Assembly: GCA_026393475.1 (NCBI GenBank)
Contig: JAPLAA010000092.1
Span: 1 to 64,000 of the forward strand
Direction: 5' to 3'
DNA: 64,000 bases
DNA from: Actinomycetota bacterium
GTDB lineage: Bacteria; Actinomycetota; Acidimicrobiia; Acidimicrobiales; Ilumatobacteraceae
Under the pieces are notes generated by a model. That model saw only the letters and a program-made list of their open reading frames with translations. It had not been told where the DNA came from and searched no databases. Position 1 is the first letter of the stretch. Every line of letters begins with the position of its first letter. This document shows, piece after piece, positions 13,510 through 56,432 of this stretch. The position numbers and the translations under genes were made by a program.

Positions 13510-14607
13510 TCACTTCAGGAACGACGGCACGTCGAAGTCGTCGTCGCCGTCGAGCGGGTCGACCGCGTCGTCGGCGAAGAGATCCTTCAACGTGGAGGCC
13601 GGCTTGCTCTCGACGGCCTTCAGGGCCGGCTTGGCCGACGACTGCCCGGCGCCGGCATCCCAACGGTCGAATCCGGCGGCGATGACGGTGACCTTGACCT
13701 CGTCGCCCATCTCGTCGTCGATCACGGTACCGAAGATGATGTTCGCGTCCTGATGGGCGACGCCGTGGATGATCTCCGCGGCGGCGTTCATCTCGAACAG
13801 ACCCATGCTCGACGGACCCGTGATGTTGAGCAGGATGCCGCGGGCGCCGTCGATGGCGGCCTCGAGCAGCGGGCTGGAGATCGCGGCCTTCGCGGCGACG
13901 ACAGCGCGGTTCTCACCGCTCGCCTGGCCGATGCCCATGAGCGCCGAGCCGGCGCTCGCGAGGATCATCTTCACGTCCGCGAAGTCGGTGTTGATGAGGC
14001 CGGGCGTGGTGATCAGGTTGGTGATGCCCGACACGCCCTGGAGCAGGACCTCGTCGGCCATCTTGAACGCGTTGAGCACGCTGGTCTTCTCGTTCGCCAC
14101 CGTGAGCAGGCGGTCGTTCGGGATGACGATCAGCGTGTCGACCTTCTCCTTCAGCTTGGCCACACCGGTGTCGGCCTGCACCGCACGACGGCGACCCTCG
14201 AAGCTGAACGGTCGGGTGACGACACCGATCGCGAGCGCACCCAGGCTGCGCGACACCTCGGCGATGACGGGCGCTGCACCGGTTCCGGTGCCGCCGCCCT
14301 CGCCGGCGGTGATGAACACCATGTCGGCGCCCTTGATCATCTCCTCGATCTCGTCCCGATGCGCCTCTGCAGCGGCGCGACCCACCTCGGGGTCGCTGCC
14401 GGCACCGAGGCCGCGGGTGAGGTCACGGCCGATGTCGAGCTTGACGTCGGCATCGCTCATGAGCAGCGCCTGGGCATCGGTGTTCACGGCGATGAACTCC
14501 ACGCCCTTGAGCCCGGCGTCGATCATGCGATTGACGGCGTTCACGCCACCGCCACCCACGCCGATCACCTTGATGACGGCGAGATAGTTCTGTGGGGCGC
14601 CGGCCAT
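13510..14607 (-). CDS. ftsZ: Cell division GTPase FtsZ
   Basis: FtsZ is the tubulin-like GTPase that forms the division ring. The 365-residue protein has the GTP-binding start [17 protein letters not shown] and the tubulin signature [16 protein letters not shown]. The synergy-loop region ([11 protein letters not shown]) follows, then a Lys/Ala/Pro linker and the conserved C-terminal peptide [11 protein letters not shown] that binds SepF and other partners. A GGAGGT Shine-Dalgarno is 8 nt upstream of the ATG, so this gene is not leaderless. It is followed by pgeF, the PLP gene and sepF. The ftsQ-ftsZ spacer (14608-14846) gives room for its own promoter. Confidence 0.98.
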
Positions 14608-29763: not shown

Positions 29764-30501
29764 TCACGGCAGGCGCTGCCAGTGGTCGACCCAGACGTCC
29801 CAGTTGAAGCCGCCGTCGAGGTTGCCCCCGAAGCTGCGGATGAGGGCCGGCCCGACGGCGTCGCCGCGCATGCCGGTCACGAGCACGTAGTCCTCCTGCC
29901 AGCGAGTGGTCCACGGCGCACACGACCCGGTGTTCCACTTCGTGGTCTGGGTGGTGCGCCACTGGATGCCCTGACGGCCAGGCGTCACCTCGACGAAGCC
30001 GAGGACTCGCGCTTCCCAGGTGTTGACCCCGGTGCACACGGTGACGCCGTCGAGCTGCTGGGTGACGTTCGACTTGCCGGTGGTGCGCCAGGCACGCCCG
30101 TTCCAGGTACGGGGGATGAACGTGATCGGCGGGCTGTAGATCGTGTCGTGCTTCGGGCCCTCGCACTCGTGGTGCGTGACCGAGTAGACGAGCCGGGTCG
30201 ACTGCCAGGTGAGCTGGTCGTAGTGGCAGCGGTCGAACGGCGCCGAGTTGTACTGCCGGAACGTGCCCCGCCCGAGGTCCTCGAACCACAGCACCGACCG
30301 CTGCGGCGTGCCGCTCGTGTAGTTGAACCCTTCGAGGTAGTAGCCACCGAAGGCCAACGTCGGGTTCGGGTAGTAGCTGCGCAGGTCGTACGAGGTCGCG
30401 GCCCCGGCGGTGCCGGCGCCGCCGGCATCACCGGCGACGACCGGCACGAGCGCGGACAGAGCGATCGCTGCGGCGACAGCGCCGCGACGTGCGGTCTTCA
30501 T
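29764..30501 (-). CDS. Unknown secreted protein encoded between mraZ and rsmH
   Basis: The 245-residue product is not one I recognise. It has a clear Sec signal peptide: basic MKTARR, a hydrophobic Ala/Val core and a likely cleavage after GAGTAGAA near residue 35. The mature part is about 210 residues, rich in Trp, Tyr, Thr and Asn, with four cysteines (in DRCHYDQ, HHECEGP, TVCTGV and GSCAPW) that could form two disulfides. There is no membrane anchor. Phrases such as RTWNGRAWRTTGKSN, followed later by QWRTTQTTKWNTG, suggest a beta-rich domain. The ATG overlaps the mraZ stop (ATGA, 30498-30501), so translation is coupled to mraZ. Secreted proteins are not normally found at this dcw position. 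A role at the septum or in wall remodelling is inference only. Confidence 0.85.
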   Translation of the reverse strand: MKTARRGAVAAAIALSALVPVVAGDAGGAGTAGAATSYDLRSYYPNPTLAFGGYYLEGFNYTSGTPQRSVLWFEDLGRGTFRQYNSAPFDRCHYDQLTWQSTRLVYSVTHHECEGPKHDTIYSPPITFIPRTWNGRAWRTTGKSNVTQQLDGVTVCTGVNTWEARVLGFVEVTPGRQGIQWRTTQTTKWNTGSCAPWTTRWQEDYVLVTGMRGDAVGPALIRSFGGNLDGGFNWDVWVDHWQRLP

Positions 30502-30941
30502 GACGTCACACCTCCTGGTCCGCTCGTGAGCAGACCTGCCAGATCGTTGGTGCCCGCCGCCTGCACGAGCTCGAAGCGCTCGGGCGACCAGATCTCCACC
30601 ACGTCGAAGTTGCCGGTGACGATCACCTTGGCCTCGGTGGCCAGACCGGCGAACGCGCGGAGCTTCTCCTCGACGTTCACCCGGCCCTGCTTGTCGATGG
30701 TGACCGGCGTGGCGCTCGCGGCGACCGCACGCTGGTACTGACGGGTGATCTCACCGGTGCGGACGCGCTCTTTCAGATCGGCGGCCATCGACTCGAACTC
30801 GTCGGAGGGCACGACCTTGACGCACTGGTCCTCGCCGGCGACGAGGTAGCAGCGCTCGCCCAGGTGCGTGCGGAACGAGGCCGGCAGCGCCAGCCGTCCC
30901 TTGTCGTCGAGTTGACGCTCATGCGTCCCGACGAACAACAC
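30498..30941 (-). CDS. mraZ: Transcriptional regulator MraZ
   Basis: MraZ is an AbrB-like DNA-binding protein that represses the dcw operon by binding tandem G-rich boxes upstream of its own gene. The 147-residue protein has two SpoVT/AbrB-like repeats: FVGTHERQLDDKGRLALPAS with SFRTHLG (residues 2-30), and VTIDKQGRVNVEEKLRAFAG (about 80-100). The start is a GTG at 30941 with a GAGGTGAT Shine-Dalgarno about 8 nt upstream. A promoter and two MraZ-box pairs lie about 130-190 bp upstream. It heads the dcw operon and overlaps the secreted unknown gene. Confidence 0.97.
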   Translation of the reverse strand: MLFVGTHERQLDDKGRLALPASFRTHLGERCYLVAGEDQCVKVVPSDEFESMAADLKERVRTGEITRQYQRAVAASATPVTIDKQGRVNVEEKLRAFAGLATEAKVIVTGNFDVVEIWSPERFELVQAAGTNDLAGLLTSGPGGVTS

Positions 30942-51068: not shown

Positions 51069-54000
51069 TCACCAGCCGCGTCGGCGGCGTCCGCTGACGA
51101 GCACGACCGCGAAGGCCAGCGCTCCCGCGGCACCCCCGAAGCCGAGCAGGTCTGCGGCCCGGAAGTCCCTGGGTGTCATCGGCGTCGCCGGCGTCGTCGC
51201 CGGAACGGGCATGGAGCCCTCGGCGTCCGCGCCCGGTGCCGACGTCGCAGGAGCGGCCGATCCGGTCGATCCCGTCGACTCGCCGGGCCGCACGTCGACG
51301 GTGTCGACGTCGACGTCGTCCTCCGTCGCGGTGTCAGCAGGGTCGGCCGTGAGCATCGCGGTGACCGCGACGTCATCGGTCTCCGTCGCCGGTCCGACCG
51401 AGGCCGTGAGCGACAGCACCGACGAGGTGTCGGGTGCGATCCCGTCCGGGGCGGTGCACACGATGGTGGCGCTCCGTCCGTCGCACGACCAGGCATCGAC
51501 GCCACCGTCGACGGCGACGATCTCGACGCCGACAGGGAGCGCGACCGTCATCGTCACCGGTGTGGCCGACCGGCTGGGTCCGTCGTTCACCACGGTCACG
51601 GCGAGCACCATCCGCTCACCCACGTACGCAACGTCGGGGGCGTCGACGTCGATCGACATCGCCGCCGATCGACCCACCTGCACGGGAGCGGCCGACCGGT
51701 GGGGCACGGCATCGGTGACCCCGATGACCCGGGCCGCCTGGGTGGCGTCACCGTCGGCGGCCGGCACCAACGTCAGGTCGATCGGCGGGAGCGTCTCACC
51801 GACGTCGAGCACCGGCTGCCCGTACTCGGCACGTCGACGTCCGTAGGTGCACTCGACCGTCCGGGTCACGTCCGGGTCGTCGGCGTCGACGCTTCTCGTG
51901 GTGACACCGCAGGCCCACCCGTCGCCGTCGGCCGCCATCAGATCGATCGCCGCGGTCACGGGGATCTGGACGACGACCGGACCGTACTCGCCACTCGGTC
52001 CGTCGTTGCCGACGACGACCTGTACGTCGTGCGGCTCACCGGTGCGCCAGGCGCCCGACGACGTGTCGACGAGCGAGACCGTGTTCGTGGTCTCCGGCGC
52101 CGCGGTCCAGGTGAGAGTGCTGCTGATCGGTTCGGGGCCCGAGGCCGACCCGGTCACGGTCACGGTGTGGTCGAACGACTCCCGAGCGCTCGGCGCCAGG
52201 TTCGACACCGCCTCGGGCGCCACCCTCGCGGTCACCTCGACCGCGGGCATGAGCATGCCCGACACCACCGGCGTCGTCGATGCGTCCCAGGTGCACGTCC
52301 AGCTGCCGTCGGCGATGTCGCTCGGCGCCTCGACGGCGCAGATCCAGCCGTCGCCGACGACCGCACCGATCTCGAGACCGGCGGCGACCTCGGCGCGCAC
52401 CTCGACCTCACCCTCGTCCGCCGCCGGTCCCTGGTTGGTGACGACCACCTCGTAGGTGAGCTGCTCGCCGACCTCGACGAAACGACTGCCGGTGACCGCC
52501 TGGACGGAGAGCTCGGCGACCGGGCCGGGCGCAACACTGCGCTGGGCGAGATCGTTCGACGGGTTGCGATCGCCGGCGAAGGTCACCCGGCCGGGGATCG
52601 GCGGGTCGCCGGCGAACCCCGGATCGATCTGCACGTTGACGACGAGCGCATCGAGCGCGGTGCCGGCACCGACATCGCGGAGCTGGCGGCGGCACGACAG
52701 CACCCCGTTGGTGTCGGGATCGGCGGCGTAGGCGGTGCCGACGCGCGAGCCGCCGCAGGTCCATCCTCTGCCGCGGGCACTCACGAAACGCATGCCCTGC
52801 GGCATCGTGTCCTCGAGCACCAGTTCACCGGTGACGGCTGCCGGTCCGACCACGATCGGCGTGAGGATCCAGTCGACACGCGCACCGGGCGCCATGGGAG
52901 TCGTCCCCGACAGCACGCCGGTGAGTGCCACGTCGGCGTCGCGACGCACGCGGGTCGACTCGCCGTCGGCATCGTTCGACGTGTCGCGGTCGAGTCCGCC
53001 GCCGGCGACGGTGGCGGTCGCGGTGGCGATGGCGAGGTCGGGGTCACCGTCGGAGCCGTCGTCGGCCAACGCTCCCGGGCCGACCGCCACGCCCACGACG
53101 ACCGGTGCCGCAGCGTCACCGACGAGGATCGTCGCCGACGAGGTGCAGTCCACGGTGGCGCCGATCGCACACTCCCAGCCGTCGCCGACCGCACTGATCG
53201 CGACCATGCCGGCAGGGACGTCGACGCTCACCGTGACCGGACCGGTCGTCGCGTCCGGCCCCTCGTTGGCGACGTCGACCCGGTAACGACCGAGACCGCC
53301 CACGACGACGGCAGGGTCCGCGTTGGCCGTCCCGTCATCGGGGCCGACATCGGTGAGCCGGGCCACCAGGTCGACGGTGCGGGCGATGGCGCCCGCTCGA
53401 TCGCCGGCGGATCCGAGCGGGTTCCCGGCCGCGTCCTCGGCGGTGAGGGTCACCTCGCTCACGTGGGCGATGGGCTTGCCCGCTGCGTCGACGACGCCGG
53501 GATCGTCGATGGCCGCCTCCTGTGGTGTCGCCGAGAACGCGAGCACGACCTCCTCACCCTGGTCGAGGTCACACATGTCCGACCAGGTGGCCGTCTGCAT
53601 GCCGGCCACGTCGTCGACGAGCACCACCGGCGCCACGTCGCACGTCGGCGGCGAGACGGACACGGTGGCCGTGTAGACCCAGTTCTTCGGCAGCGAGTGC
53701 ACCAGGTCGATGCCGTGCGCGGTCACGGGGTTCGGCGAGATGTTCGCCACCGTCAGGACCCACGTGAATGGCTGTCCGATCGTCATCTGGTCGACTGCAG
53801 TGCCATCGCCGGCCGACGCCGTCAGCCGGAGCGTGGCCCGCCGGACGACCAGTTCGTCGACGACGGACGGACCGTCGGTGGTGCCCGACCGACCCGCGAA
53901 CCCCTGATCGGTGATGCTCACCGAGCTGGTCACCATCGAGCCGTCCTCCAGCTCCGTCGCCGCCGGCAGGCTCTCGCGCCAGGAGACCGTGCACTCGGTG

Positions 54001-56432
54001 CCGGGCGCGAGCGAGCCGGCGGTTCCGAAGAGGGTCCAACCCACCGTGGCCGGCCCGTCGACCGCCGTGGCACCAGCCTCGGCACCGGCACACGTCCCGG
54101 CGAGCGACGTGGCATCGATGACGCCGACATCGGGTGCGACGAGCACCGAGGCGGAGCTCACCGCGGTGTCACCCTCGTTGCGGAGAGTGGCCGTGTGGGT
54201 GACCACCTGACCGCCCTCCACCTGACGGTCGGCATCATCGACCGACGTCGCGAGGATCAGCCCGTCCACGCTCGACAACGGGCGGGCCCGAGGTGCCGCG
54301 ATCGCGGCCTCCTCCCCCGCCTCGTCGGCGTCCTCGCCGTCGGCTGGGTCCTGGCCGGCGTCTGCGTCGGCGGGCCCGAGCGATGCACCGGTCGTCTCGA
54401 GCGTCGTCTCGGCCGCGTCGCCCGCTGCCTGGTCGGGCTCGGTCGAGTTGGTCGCCCGCTCGGGGGTCGTCGACGAGGTCGACTGCTCTGGTGACTCTGG
54501 CGATTCGGACAATTCGGGTGATTCTGGTGACGTCGTCGCCGTGGGCGCTGGATCTGCGGCGGCGCTCCTGCTGGTCGGCGGCAGCACCGCCACGCCGACG
54601 GCGACCACCGCTGCGGCGGTGAGCAGGCGCAGCACGGGCACGCCACCGGCGCGCACGGGCAGACGGCCCACCACCGGATCGGGCTCACGGCGCGGTCGCT
54701 CCTCGGCCGCGCCCGCCATCTGCCACAGCCAGAGCGCGAGGTAGTCGTCGTGTTCGCCGGCCAGGCCGCCCCCCGCGAGGCGCATGCCCAACACCCAGGT
54801 GTCGGTGCGCTGCTCGACTCGCACCACCTGGGCGCGCACGTCCACGGGGTGCTGCCCGCGGGCGATGAGCTGCACCGGGAACTCGACCAACAGGTCGGCG
54901 GGCGCTCCGAACTCCACCCGCATGCCGCCGGCGGCGAGGTCGAGCACACGGCCCTGGTGCGTGCCGATCCGGGCGGCGATGTCCACCGGCAGCCGACGGC
55001 TGCCGCGGAGCGAGCGGTTGCGACGCAGCACCCGGGCCGACGACAGCAGGCACGCGACGGTCGCCACACCGGCGACGAGCAACGCGCCTTCCGTCAGGAA
55101 TCGGCGGGCATCGTCGTCGGTGACGATCACCTGCCATGCCCGCCATGCCAACGCGACGTCGACGGCGAGCACGAGCGCGAGCAGTTCGAGCTGCGATCGC
55201 CAGCCGCGCCGCGACGGCCCGACCGCCGGGACCTCGATCGTCTGCGCGCCGCGCCGCATCGATCGGGCCACGGCCCGGAGCGATGGTGCGATGTCGTCGG
55301 TCGAGGCCCGGCACATGCCGATGGGTCGGATCAGGCCGCCGGTCAGCAGCAGTCGGGCGAGCCAGGCGAGGCCGATCGCGATCGGCGCTCCCCATGCCCA
55401 TGCCTCGAACGGCAGCGGGAGCTCGCCTGTCGCCAGCGCCGCGACCACCGCGGAGACGGCCGTCACCGCGGCGATGCCGGCGAGGTCCTCGACGAGGGTC
55501 GCGACGTGTGCGAGGCGCTGCCAGCGGGTGAGGCCGCGCGCCCAGATCGGCGACCGGAGGCCGCGCATCGACCGCAGTCGATCGCCCCGCGCGGCGATCT
55601 CGCGGTCGCGGGTCGCGCCCGCATCGACCTGCTCCACCGCGATCATCGGCCGGTGCCAGCGGCCGTGCCAGCCGAGTCGTTGGGCGGCGACGGTGCAGGC
55701 AGCCGCGCCGCGGGCGACGGGCAGGGTGCGGAAGGCGTCGACAAGGACGATCGAGCCGAAGCCGAGCCATGGCATCGCACCGCGGGCGTCGAGCGACGGC
55801 CACCACCGGTCGTGTCGGACATGGTCGAGCAACGCTCGGTCGCCCGGTGCCACCGGTTCGGACTGGACCCACACGGTGCCCCGGTCGAACTGCTCGAGCG
55901 CGGGACGCAGCGCACCCGGCAGGACCGCCGACGCCGCCGACGTGAGCACGAGGTGCCCGCCCGTCGCGGCGGCCACCGCGGCGGCGATCCCGGCCCGCGG
56001 GCCGATGCCGCTCGTGACCCGGCGCACGCCGAGCGATCGTCCGAGTTGGTCGAGGCGCGGATCGGCGCCCACCAGCAGCACCCGCGACGCAGCGCCGGTC
56101 GACGCGATCGCGGCGATGGTCGCCGTGCGCACCAGCACGAGCGATTCGCCGTCGCACACGACCGCGACCTCGGTGCGGTCGAGCGCGGCCTCGGCGGCCG
56201 ATCGAGCCCGACGGTCGGGCGGGGTGGCCCGCGGCCTGCTCCACAGCAGCGACCAGCACAGCAGGCGCACGACGGCGTACACCGCAGCGGCGAGTGCAGG
56301 CGCGAGAACGACCCAGTCCTGCGCGCTCGTGTCGGCGCTCGCGACGGTGCCGGAGACGACACGAACGGCGACCGCCACGGCTACAGCCGCTGCCATCGCA
56401 CCGATCGTGCGCCCCAACCGTGGACCTGTCAT
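51069..56432 (-). CDS. Pseudo-cellulose-synthase / PilZ / DUF11-repeat membrane protein (1787 residues)
   Basis: Domains in order: two N-terminal membrane segments (about 8-30 and 42-64); a GT2 cellulose-synthase-like region (about 85-325) with recognisable framework but no catalytic residues. TSAASAVLP stands where the DAD motif is expected, ACTVAA stands at TED, and ARGDRLRSMRGL stands at QxxRW, while GLTRWQRLAHVATL matches the downstream interface. Four membrane segments follow (about 318-336, 350-368, 414-432, 447-464), then a PilZ domain (about 470-570: RGSRR as RxxxR, VLDLAAGGMRVEF as DxSxxG with Ala for Ser). After another membrane helix (602-618) and a Ser/Pro/Glu linker come about six DUF11-like repeats (725-1700), several ending DGWxC, and a C-terminal helix with basic tail (1762-1787). 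No LPxTG. No function is known; c-di-GMP-gated surface presentation is an inference. Confidence 0.85.
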   Translation of the reverse strand: MTGPRLGRTIGAMAAAVAVAVAVRVVSGTVASADTSAQDWVVLAPALAAAVYAVVRLLCWSLLWSRPRATPPDRRARSAAEAALDRTEVAVVCDGESLVLVRTATIAAIASTGAASRVLLVGADPRLDQLGRSLGVRRVTSGIGPRAGIAAAVAAATGGHLVLTSAASAVLPGALRPALEQFDRGTVWVQSEPVAPGDRALLDHVRHDRWWPSLDARGAMPWLGFGSIVLVDAFRTLPVARGAAACTVAAQRLGWHGRWHRPMIAVEQVDAGATRDREIAARGDRLRSMRGLRSPIWARGLTRWQRLAHVATLVEDLAGIAAVTAVSAVVAALATGELPLPFEAWAWGAPIAIGLAWLARLLLTGGLIRPIGMCRASTDDIAPSLRAVARSMRRGAQTIEVPAVGPSRRGWRSQLELLALVLAVDVALAWRAWQVIVTDDDARRFLTEGALLVAGVATVACLLSSARVLRRNRSLRGSRRLPVDIAARIGTHQGRVLDLAAGGMRVEFGAPADLLVEFPVQLIARGQHPVDVRAQVVRVEQRTDTWVLGMRLAGGGLAGEHDDYLALWLWQMAGAAEERPRREPDPVVGRLPVRAGGVPVLRLLTAAAVVAVGVAVLPPTSRSAAADPAPTATTSPESPELSESPESPEQSTSSTTPERATNSTEPDQAAGDAAETTLETTGASLGPADADAGQDPADGEDADEAGEEAAIAAPRARPLSSVDGLILATSVDDADRQVEGGQVVTHTATLRNEGDTAVSSASVLVAPDVGVIDATSLAGTCAGAEAGATAVDGPATVGWTLFGTAGSLAPGTECTVSWRESLPAATELEDGSMVTSSVSITDQGFAGRSGTTDGPSVVDELVVRRATLRLTASAGDGTAVDQMTIGQPFTWVLTVANISPNPVTAHGIDLVHSLPKNWVYTATVSVSPPTCDVAPVVLVDDVAGMQTATWSDMCDLDQGEEVVLAFSATPQEAAIDDPGVVDAAGKPIAHVSEVTLTAEDAAGNPLGSAGDRAGAIARTVDLVARLTDVGPDDGTANADPAVVVGGLGRYRVDVANEGPDATTGPVTVSVDVPAGMVAISAVGDGWECAIGATVDCTSSATILVGDAAAPVVVGVAVGPGALADDGSDGDPDLAIATATATVAGGGLDRDTSNDADGESTRVRRDADVALTGVLSGTTPMAPGARVDWILTPIVVGPAAVTGELVLEDTMPQGMRFVSARGRGWTCGGSRVGTAYAADPDTNGVLSCRRQLRDVGAGTALDALVVNVQIDPGFAGDPPIPGRVTFAGDRNPSNDLAQRSVAPGPVAELSVQAVTGSRFVEVGEQLTYEVVVTNQGPAADEGEVEVRAEVAAGLEIGAVVGDGWICAVEAPSDIADGSWTCTWDASTTPVVSGMLMPAVEVTARVAPEAVSNLAPSARESFDHTVTVTGSASGPEPISSTLTWTAAPETTNTVSLVDTSSGAWRTGEPHDVQVVVGNDGPSGEYGPVVVQIPVTAAIDLMAADGDGWACGVTTRSVDADDPDVTRTVECTYGRRRAEYGQPVLDVGETLPPIDLTLVPAADGDATQAARVIGVTDAVPHRSAAPVQVGRSAAMSIDVDAPDVAYVGERMVLAVTVVNDGPSRSATPVTMTVALPVGVEIVAVDGGVDAWSCDGRSATIVCTAPDGIAPDTSSVLSLTASVGPATETDDVAVTAMLTADPADTATEDDVDVDTVDVRPGESTGSTGSAAPATSAPGADAEGSMPVPATTPATPMTPRDFRAADLLGFGGAAGALAFAVVLVSGRRRRGW

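Follow-up and report, generated by a model that had tools for sequence, protein, structure and literature searches.

A candidate c-di-GMP receptor built on a BcsA-type cellulose synthase head and joined to a surface-type repeat tail in Actinomycetota

When a single open reading frame appears to combine the framework of a cellulose synthase, a c-di-GMP-binding domain and a string of extracellular-type repeats, but not the residues that make a synthase work, two questions arise: is such a gene real, and what could be the use of a dead enzyme at the head of a surface protein? In the window considered here (the whole 64,000-nucleotide stretch of DNA that was analysed), the gene occupies positions 51069..56432 of the minus strand, on which all of its features described below also lie, and, with its ATG start, comprises exactly 1787 uninterrupted codons of coding-like composition (GC1/2/3 of 0.74/0.58/0.88). 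Its extent follows from the ORF call and from an ortholog in another MAG (L023:10790-16093), an intact gene for 1767 amino acids with the same architecture at the same locus; together, these data bear out the single 1787-residue polypeptide of the initial annotation. In a contig search with the single target protein as the query, this ortholog was the sole match. The flanking genes, which encode a glycerol kinase, an ACT-domain protein and an aminotransferase, are metabolic and show synteny with G001; neither a bcs operon nor BcsB genes were found among the neighbours, and no promoter or terminator was called for the target gene.

What, then, is the head of this protein? A Pfam scan of the target matched PilZ and DUF11 but no glycosyltransferase, and, since Pfam alone is blind to the GT2 part, the identity of the latter had to be established by other means. 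A search profile derived exclusively from catalytically intact GT2-PilZ homologs, 15 in number, matched residues 13-553 of the target with an E-value of 6.9e-20 (in a notional search with Z=1e5 proteins) and showed no match to reversed sequences, and a profile built from the dead fused members alone matched BcsA chains in the PDB (best E-value 8e-36), in particular, Rhodobacter BcsA (4hg6) over positions 25-619 with an E-value of 6e-32. The AlphaFold model of residues 1-640 (pLDDT 76.6, pTM 0.75) was matched to BcsA both by Foldseek (E-value 6e-21) and by VIA (Z 28.6, 549 residues, 3.6 A); the intact-only profile is the cleaner test, because the alignment used for the model included intact homologs. 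Over residues 13-553, the target is a homolog of GT2-PilZ cellulose synthases, and the GT2 framework with membrane helices, read earlier from the sequence by eye, has survived a structure search that could have found no GT2 fold: the GT-A fold with membrane helices, as in BcsA, is predicted. Specifically, TM1-TM2 (residues 10-59, 56256..56405) are apparent from hydropathy and correspond to helices 4-32 and 37-63 of the model, the pseudo-GT2 domain (residues 85-300, 55533..56180) is delineated by the model, the structural match to BcsA and the intact-only profile, and the TM3-TM6 region (residues 317-463, 55044..55484) is defined by hydropathy, model and alignment, with no FxVTxK between TM4 and TM5.

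In active enzymes, the DxD, TED and QxxRW motifs provide for metal and UDP binding, the catalytic base and acceptor binding, and FxVTxK belongs to the loop that PilZ uses to open the active site of BcsA (PMC10374906, PMC10237404). All three catalytic motifs are gone in the target and in its ortholog. The alignments place TSAASAV (residues 164-170, with SAA at 165-167; 55923..55943) at the DxD position, AAACTVAA (residues 243-250; 55683..55706) at the TED position, where a gap lies beside AACT, and ATRDREIAARGDRLRSMR (residues 273-290; 55563..55616) at the QxxRW position, aligned as DREIA/ARGDRLRS, so that the substitution of SAA, ACT and GDRLRSMR for the three motifs, as first noted, is essentially correct. 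The FxVTxK gating loop is missing from the target and from 31 of 31 dead homologs, and FxVT or FxVS is present in 38 of 38 intact ones. The loss of catalysis in the target head is supported by these comparisons. A competent GT2 with shifted motifs was considered and rejected, no aligned TED or complete QxxRW being found in any of the 31 dead homologs.

The PilZ domain (residues 474-553, 54774..55013) is recognised both by Pfam (residues 474-551, 27.3 bits against a cut-off of 22.5) and in the predicted fold. RGSRR (54993..55007) represents the RxxxR c-di-GMP motif, with R476 and R480 invariant in alignments A2 and A3, and DLAAGG (54924..54941) aligns with the D/NxSxxG motif, the serine being replaced by the alanine that is also seen in the intact homologs L067 and L068. 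The four residues R476, R480, D498 and G503 are kept in the target and invariant among its fused relatives. Together with the Pfam match and the fold, this signature supports the assignment of the domain, and the retention of the c-di-GMP-binding residues makes the protein a predicted receptor. The nucleotide is very likely made in the cell, since the genome contains 30 GGDEF matches. PilZ proteins number five by Pfam, two of the genome's three proteins of the head-tail type being among them; the best PilZ match (40.6 bits) belongs to a further protein, G000:C41:281592-281888, which does not appear to be linked to GT2. In the literature, BcsA is given as the example of an effector-PilZ combination (review, PMC10333796), and the mention of PilZ in PMC3482391 relates to PrsW peptidases.

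The head is connected to the rest of the chain by a seventh helix, TM7 (residues 598-628, 54549..54641), whose sequence, VPVLRLLTAAAVVAVGVAVLPPTSRSAAADP, shows the type I signal peptidase pattern of a basic n-region, a hydrophobic stretch and an AxA site, here AAA/D (the slash marks the putative cut). A basic n-region and AxA within 18 residues are found at this helix in 17 of 21 fused proteins, as compared to an AxA pattern in 17 of the 102 other helices of the same proteins, the former count being inflated by near-identical orthologous pairs and made by pattern only. Several junction helices are followed by textbook-like sites, such as PAALA/D in L085 and ASAQA/A in L140. As TM7 resembles an internal signal peptide, head and tail may be separated by cleavage, and the simple reading that the PilZ gate moves the stalk is thereby weakened. 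Beyond TM7, a low-conservation linker rich in Ser, Thr, Pro and Glu (residues 627-715, 54288..54554; 42% identity to the ortholog over 631-715) leads to the DUF11 repeat region (residues 716-1710, 51303..54287), identified by Pfam DUF11 (E-value 1.8e-23, four stretches above the cut-off), by DUF11/TIGR01451 matches of 83.5 and 42.5 bits, both above the cut-off, and by its cysteines. The 14 cysteines of the tail form seven close pairs, one in each of about seven units, so that the DUF11 tail of the initial annotation holds but its count of about six repeats should probably be raised to seven; the pairing fits a predicted exported, oxidised location. The chain ends with a transmembrane helix and RRRRGW (residues 1762-1787, 51072..51149, from sequence and hydropathy), with no LPxTG of a sortase substrate, in support of the extracellular-type tail with a C-terminal anchor that had been proposed. 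The model of residues 600-1787, computed from two sequences (mean pLDDT 31.5), is uninformative.

Between the genomes G000 and G001, the dN/dS ratio is 0.056 in the pseudo-GT2 domain and 0.046 in PilZ, values that indicate strong purifying selection and are similar to that of the adjacent glycerol kinase (0.045); the DUF11 part and the linker have higher ratios (0.135 and 0.415, respectively). Because these ratios are low, the dead domain must be regarded as maintained.

A wider comparison places the target in a family. Samples at the levels of order, class and phylum were searched and the loci read, yielding 69 alignable homologs that divide into two sets without intermediates: in 38, the three catalytic motifs and FxVTxK are all present, and in the other 31 every one of them is missing. 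The four PilZ residues are kept in 28 of the 31 dead homologs. Of the 31 dead homologs, 22 extend at the C-terminus into a stretch that has a further membrane helix, versus 1 of the 38 intact ones (Fisher's p 6e-10, a calculation that ignores kinship); the single exception, L077, an intact protein with a helix after PilZ, is probably miscalled, as it lacks the aligned D..G motif of PilZ. With the motif columns excluded from tree building, a branch with a support of 88 separates the 21 fused proteins included from all the others; the target pair sits on a long branch (2.8). Most simply, the fusion arose once and the tails were exchanged later. Since this amounts to only about one origin, with just two independent pairs, too few for a test, the link between the tail and the loss of catalysis is not independently replicated. 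Sixteen genomes from about eight families (group codes) of Actinomycetota contributed the 22 fused proteins, so that the architecture, for which a search across related genomes had been recommended, is recurrent.

The tails are diverse. The genome of the target encodes three dead-head fused proteins, with a DUF11 tail in the target (A), an SdrD_B tail in paralog B, and, in paralog C (2790 amino acids), eight SdrD_B stretches and an LPVTG end; three sortases are encoded in the same genome. A BcsA-type query of this genome retrieved the two dead paralogs and one active GT2 that lacks PilZ (L135), and no intact GT2-PilZ protein. Elsewhere, the tails comprise CarboxypepD_reg, DUF11 and MG4-like domains, some of them cut by contig ends, and in L140:2615-7915 (minus strand), from another group of the phylum, a sub-threshold thioester domain (20.1 bits, cut-off 22) is followed by DUF11, an order resembling that of the covalent host adhesins of Gram-positive bacteria. 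At the conserved B locus, with mshA and a PPIase-like gene nearby, the tail varies from more than 400 residues to almost nothing, the tail of the syntenic L091 consisting of a second helix. Furthermore, 9 of the 31 dead homologs have no tail, which indicates that the dead head serves some purpose independently of a tail.

Comparison with known systems brings out what is peculiar in this arrangement. Residues 1-605 share the fold and the domain order of BcsA, and the PilZ RxxxR and D..G are kept, but the target lacks DxD, TED, QxxRW, FxVTxK and a bcs operon nearby, and is extended by TM7 and by some 1200 residues of extracellular-type repeat tail. The PilZ domain of the alginate protein Alg44 is related in sequence to the family profile A2, and in Alg44, as is predicted for the target, a cytoplasmic PilZ is joined via a membrane helix to an exported part; a GT2-like membrane core is missing from Alg44, however, and what Alg44 exports is no stalk of surface repeats. 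A functional analogy is offered by the LapD/LapG/LapA system of diderms, where c-di-GMP decides on the retention of a large surface protein; there, separate proteins are involved, including a degenerate GGDEF/EAL receptor and a periplasmic protease, whereas the target is one PilZ-bearing polypeptide. The tail belongs to the DUF11 and SdrD-B families of Gram-positive surface repeat proteins, whose N-terminus is normally a conventional signal peptide rather than a BcsA-like head.

We propose that the protein is a non-catalytic c-di-GMP receptor that evolved from a BcsA-type cellulose synthase and presents a surface protein, a reading to which we assign a probability of roughly 0.4. The head (residues 1-590), with its BcsA fold and PilZ binding residues but neither an active site nor the gating-loop motif, would reside in the membrane and the cytoplasm, the signal-peptide-like seventh helix would lead the disulfide-capable repeats out of the cell, and the C-terminal helix would anchor them. 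Binding of c-di-GMP to PilZ would then change the head so as to control the display, the clustering, or the retention versus release of a stalk that may act as an adhesin or matrix protein. Of the gate that was initially supposed to control the DUF11 stalk, the PilZ signature is kept, but the FxVTxK loop is absent, and control of the stalk by PilZ is a conjecture. The proposed receptor role gains from the tails of the family, which by sequence are of surface types (SdrD_B, CarboxypepD_reg, DUF11 and a weak thioester domain), and loses from the alanine in place of the motif serine of PilZ, from the long branch of the target and from the nearly single origin of the fusion; the tail-less dead heads and L091, which show that the head does not depend on the tail, likewise count against it. 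Even more tentatively, dead BcsA cores in several lineages of Actinomycetota can be envisaged as single-chain effectors that sense c-di-GMP and control the display, or the signal-peptidase-dependent release, of interchangeable adhesins.

Were signal peptidase I to cut after TM7, direct mechanical coupling would be impossible. The repeats would then make an ordinary surface or secreted protein, the head would be a separate c-di-GMP-dependent membrane regulator, and the fusion would secure only joint production or co-localised export. The existence of dead heads without tails makes this the main rival and a serious one, although we consider it rather doubtful: the signal-peptide pattern at TM7 agrees with it, and the LPVTG end of paralog C and the three sortases fit a freed, wall-anchored tail, but signal peptides inside a chain may escape cleavage, no strict AxA is present in paralog C, and the tail of L140, having no obvious C-terminal helix, would leave the cell if cut.

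It is unlikely that the dead head serves as a non-catalytic subunit of a polysaccharide synthase, pairing with an active GT2 that it would regulate in response to c-di-GMP, with the repeats binding or anchoring the polymer. Such a role would account for the retention of the fold under strong selection, the genome does contain an active GT2 without PilZ, and PilZ controls synthesis in BcsA (PMC10374906); however, no polysaccharide genes adjoin the target, paralog B or paralog C loci, no partner emerged, and GT2 enzymes are common in any genome. Least credible of all is a broken cellulose synthase run into a neighbouring surface gene, through decay or misassembly. The loss of every catalytic motif and the strong divergence of the target head might seem to speak for it, but it is ruled out by the intact ortholog at the same locus in another MAG, by the dN/dS of 0.056 in the pseudo-GT2 domain, and by the recurrence of this kind of architecture in 16 or more genomes. 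The fusion, which might have proved an artefact, is repeated in independent genomes and at a conserved locus.

Each of the domains is known; their combination and its consistent link to the loss of catalysis appear to be new. In agreement with the earlier statement that no described system with this domain order was known, none was found in the open-access literature, most subscription papers and preprints being outside that scope, and the dead-head fused family of Actinomycetota is apparently undescribed. The data suggest that, in these bacteria, a polysaccharide-making machine was turned into a signal-controlled surface protein. If so, an entire processive polysaccharide synthase can be put to new use as a receptor that links a second messenger to protein adhesins, and monoderms have a one-chain counterpart to the multi-protein, Lap-type control of adhesins in diderms. 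The family also provides the many diguanylate cyclases of these little-studied Actinomycetota with a concrete target; in the genome studied here, 30 GGDEF matches stand beside few PilZ proteins. Recognition of the family matters for annotation, as these genes would otherwise be called cellulose synthases or left unnamed.

Several minor observations deserve mention. Three tail-less dead GT2-PilZ genes (L028:6961-8934, L079:6141-8009 and L081:6159-8198) directly adjoin a gene for a class A penicillin-binding protein, and this neighbour, present in 3 of 3 genomes, is a hint of a link to the cell wall. The GT2 proteins without PilZ, L135:3869-8857 and L138:5603-9451 (both plus strand), are apparently active, judging by DAD, SED and QYRWARG, and continue, with domains read by eye, into a membrane region resembling an acyltransferase and a C-terminus resembling a beta-lactamase. 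Three intact GT2-PilZ proteins (L064:4194-8123, L115:4652-7627 and L116:5680-8634) have N-terminal extensions of 350-670 residues, which may be start-codon overcalls. The G003 copy of paralog C (L026:6382-10448, minus strand) is split into two frames, with an 899-residue head in one and the SdrD_B tail in the other, and is a frameshift or an assembly error. Finally, an ftsZ-like ORF (13510-14607) and an mraZ-like ORF (30498-30941), both on the minus strand of the window and recognised by eye, seem to belong to a cluster of division and cell wall genes.
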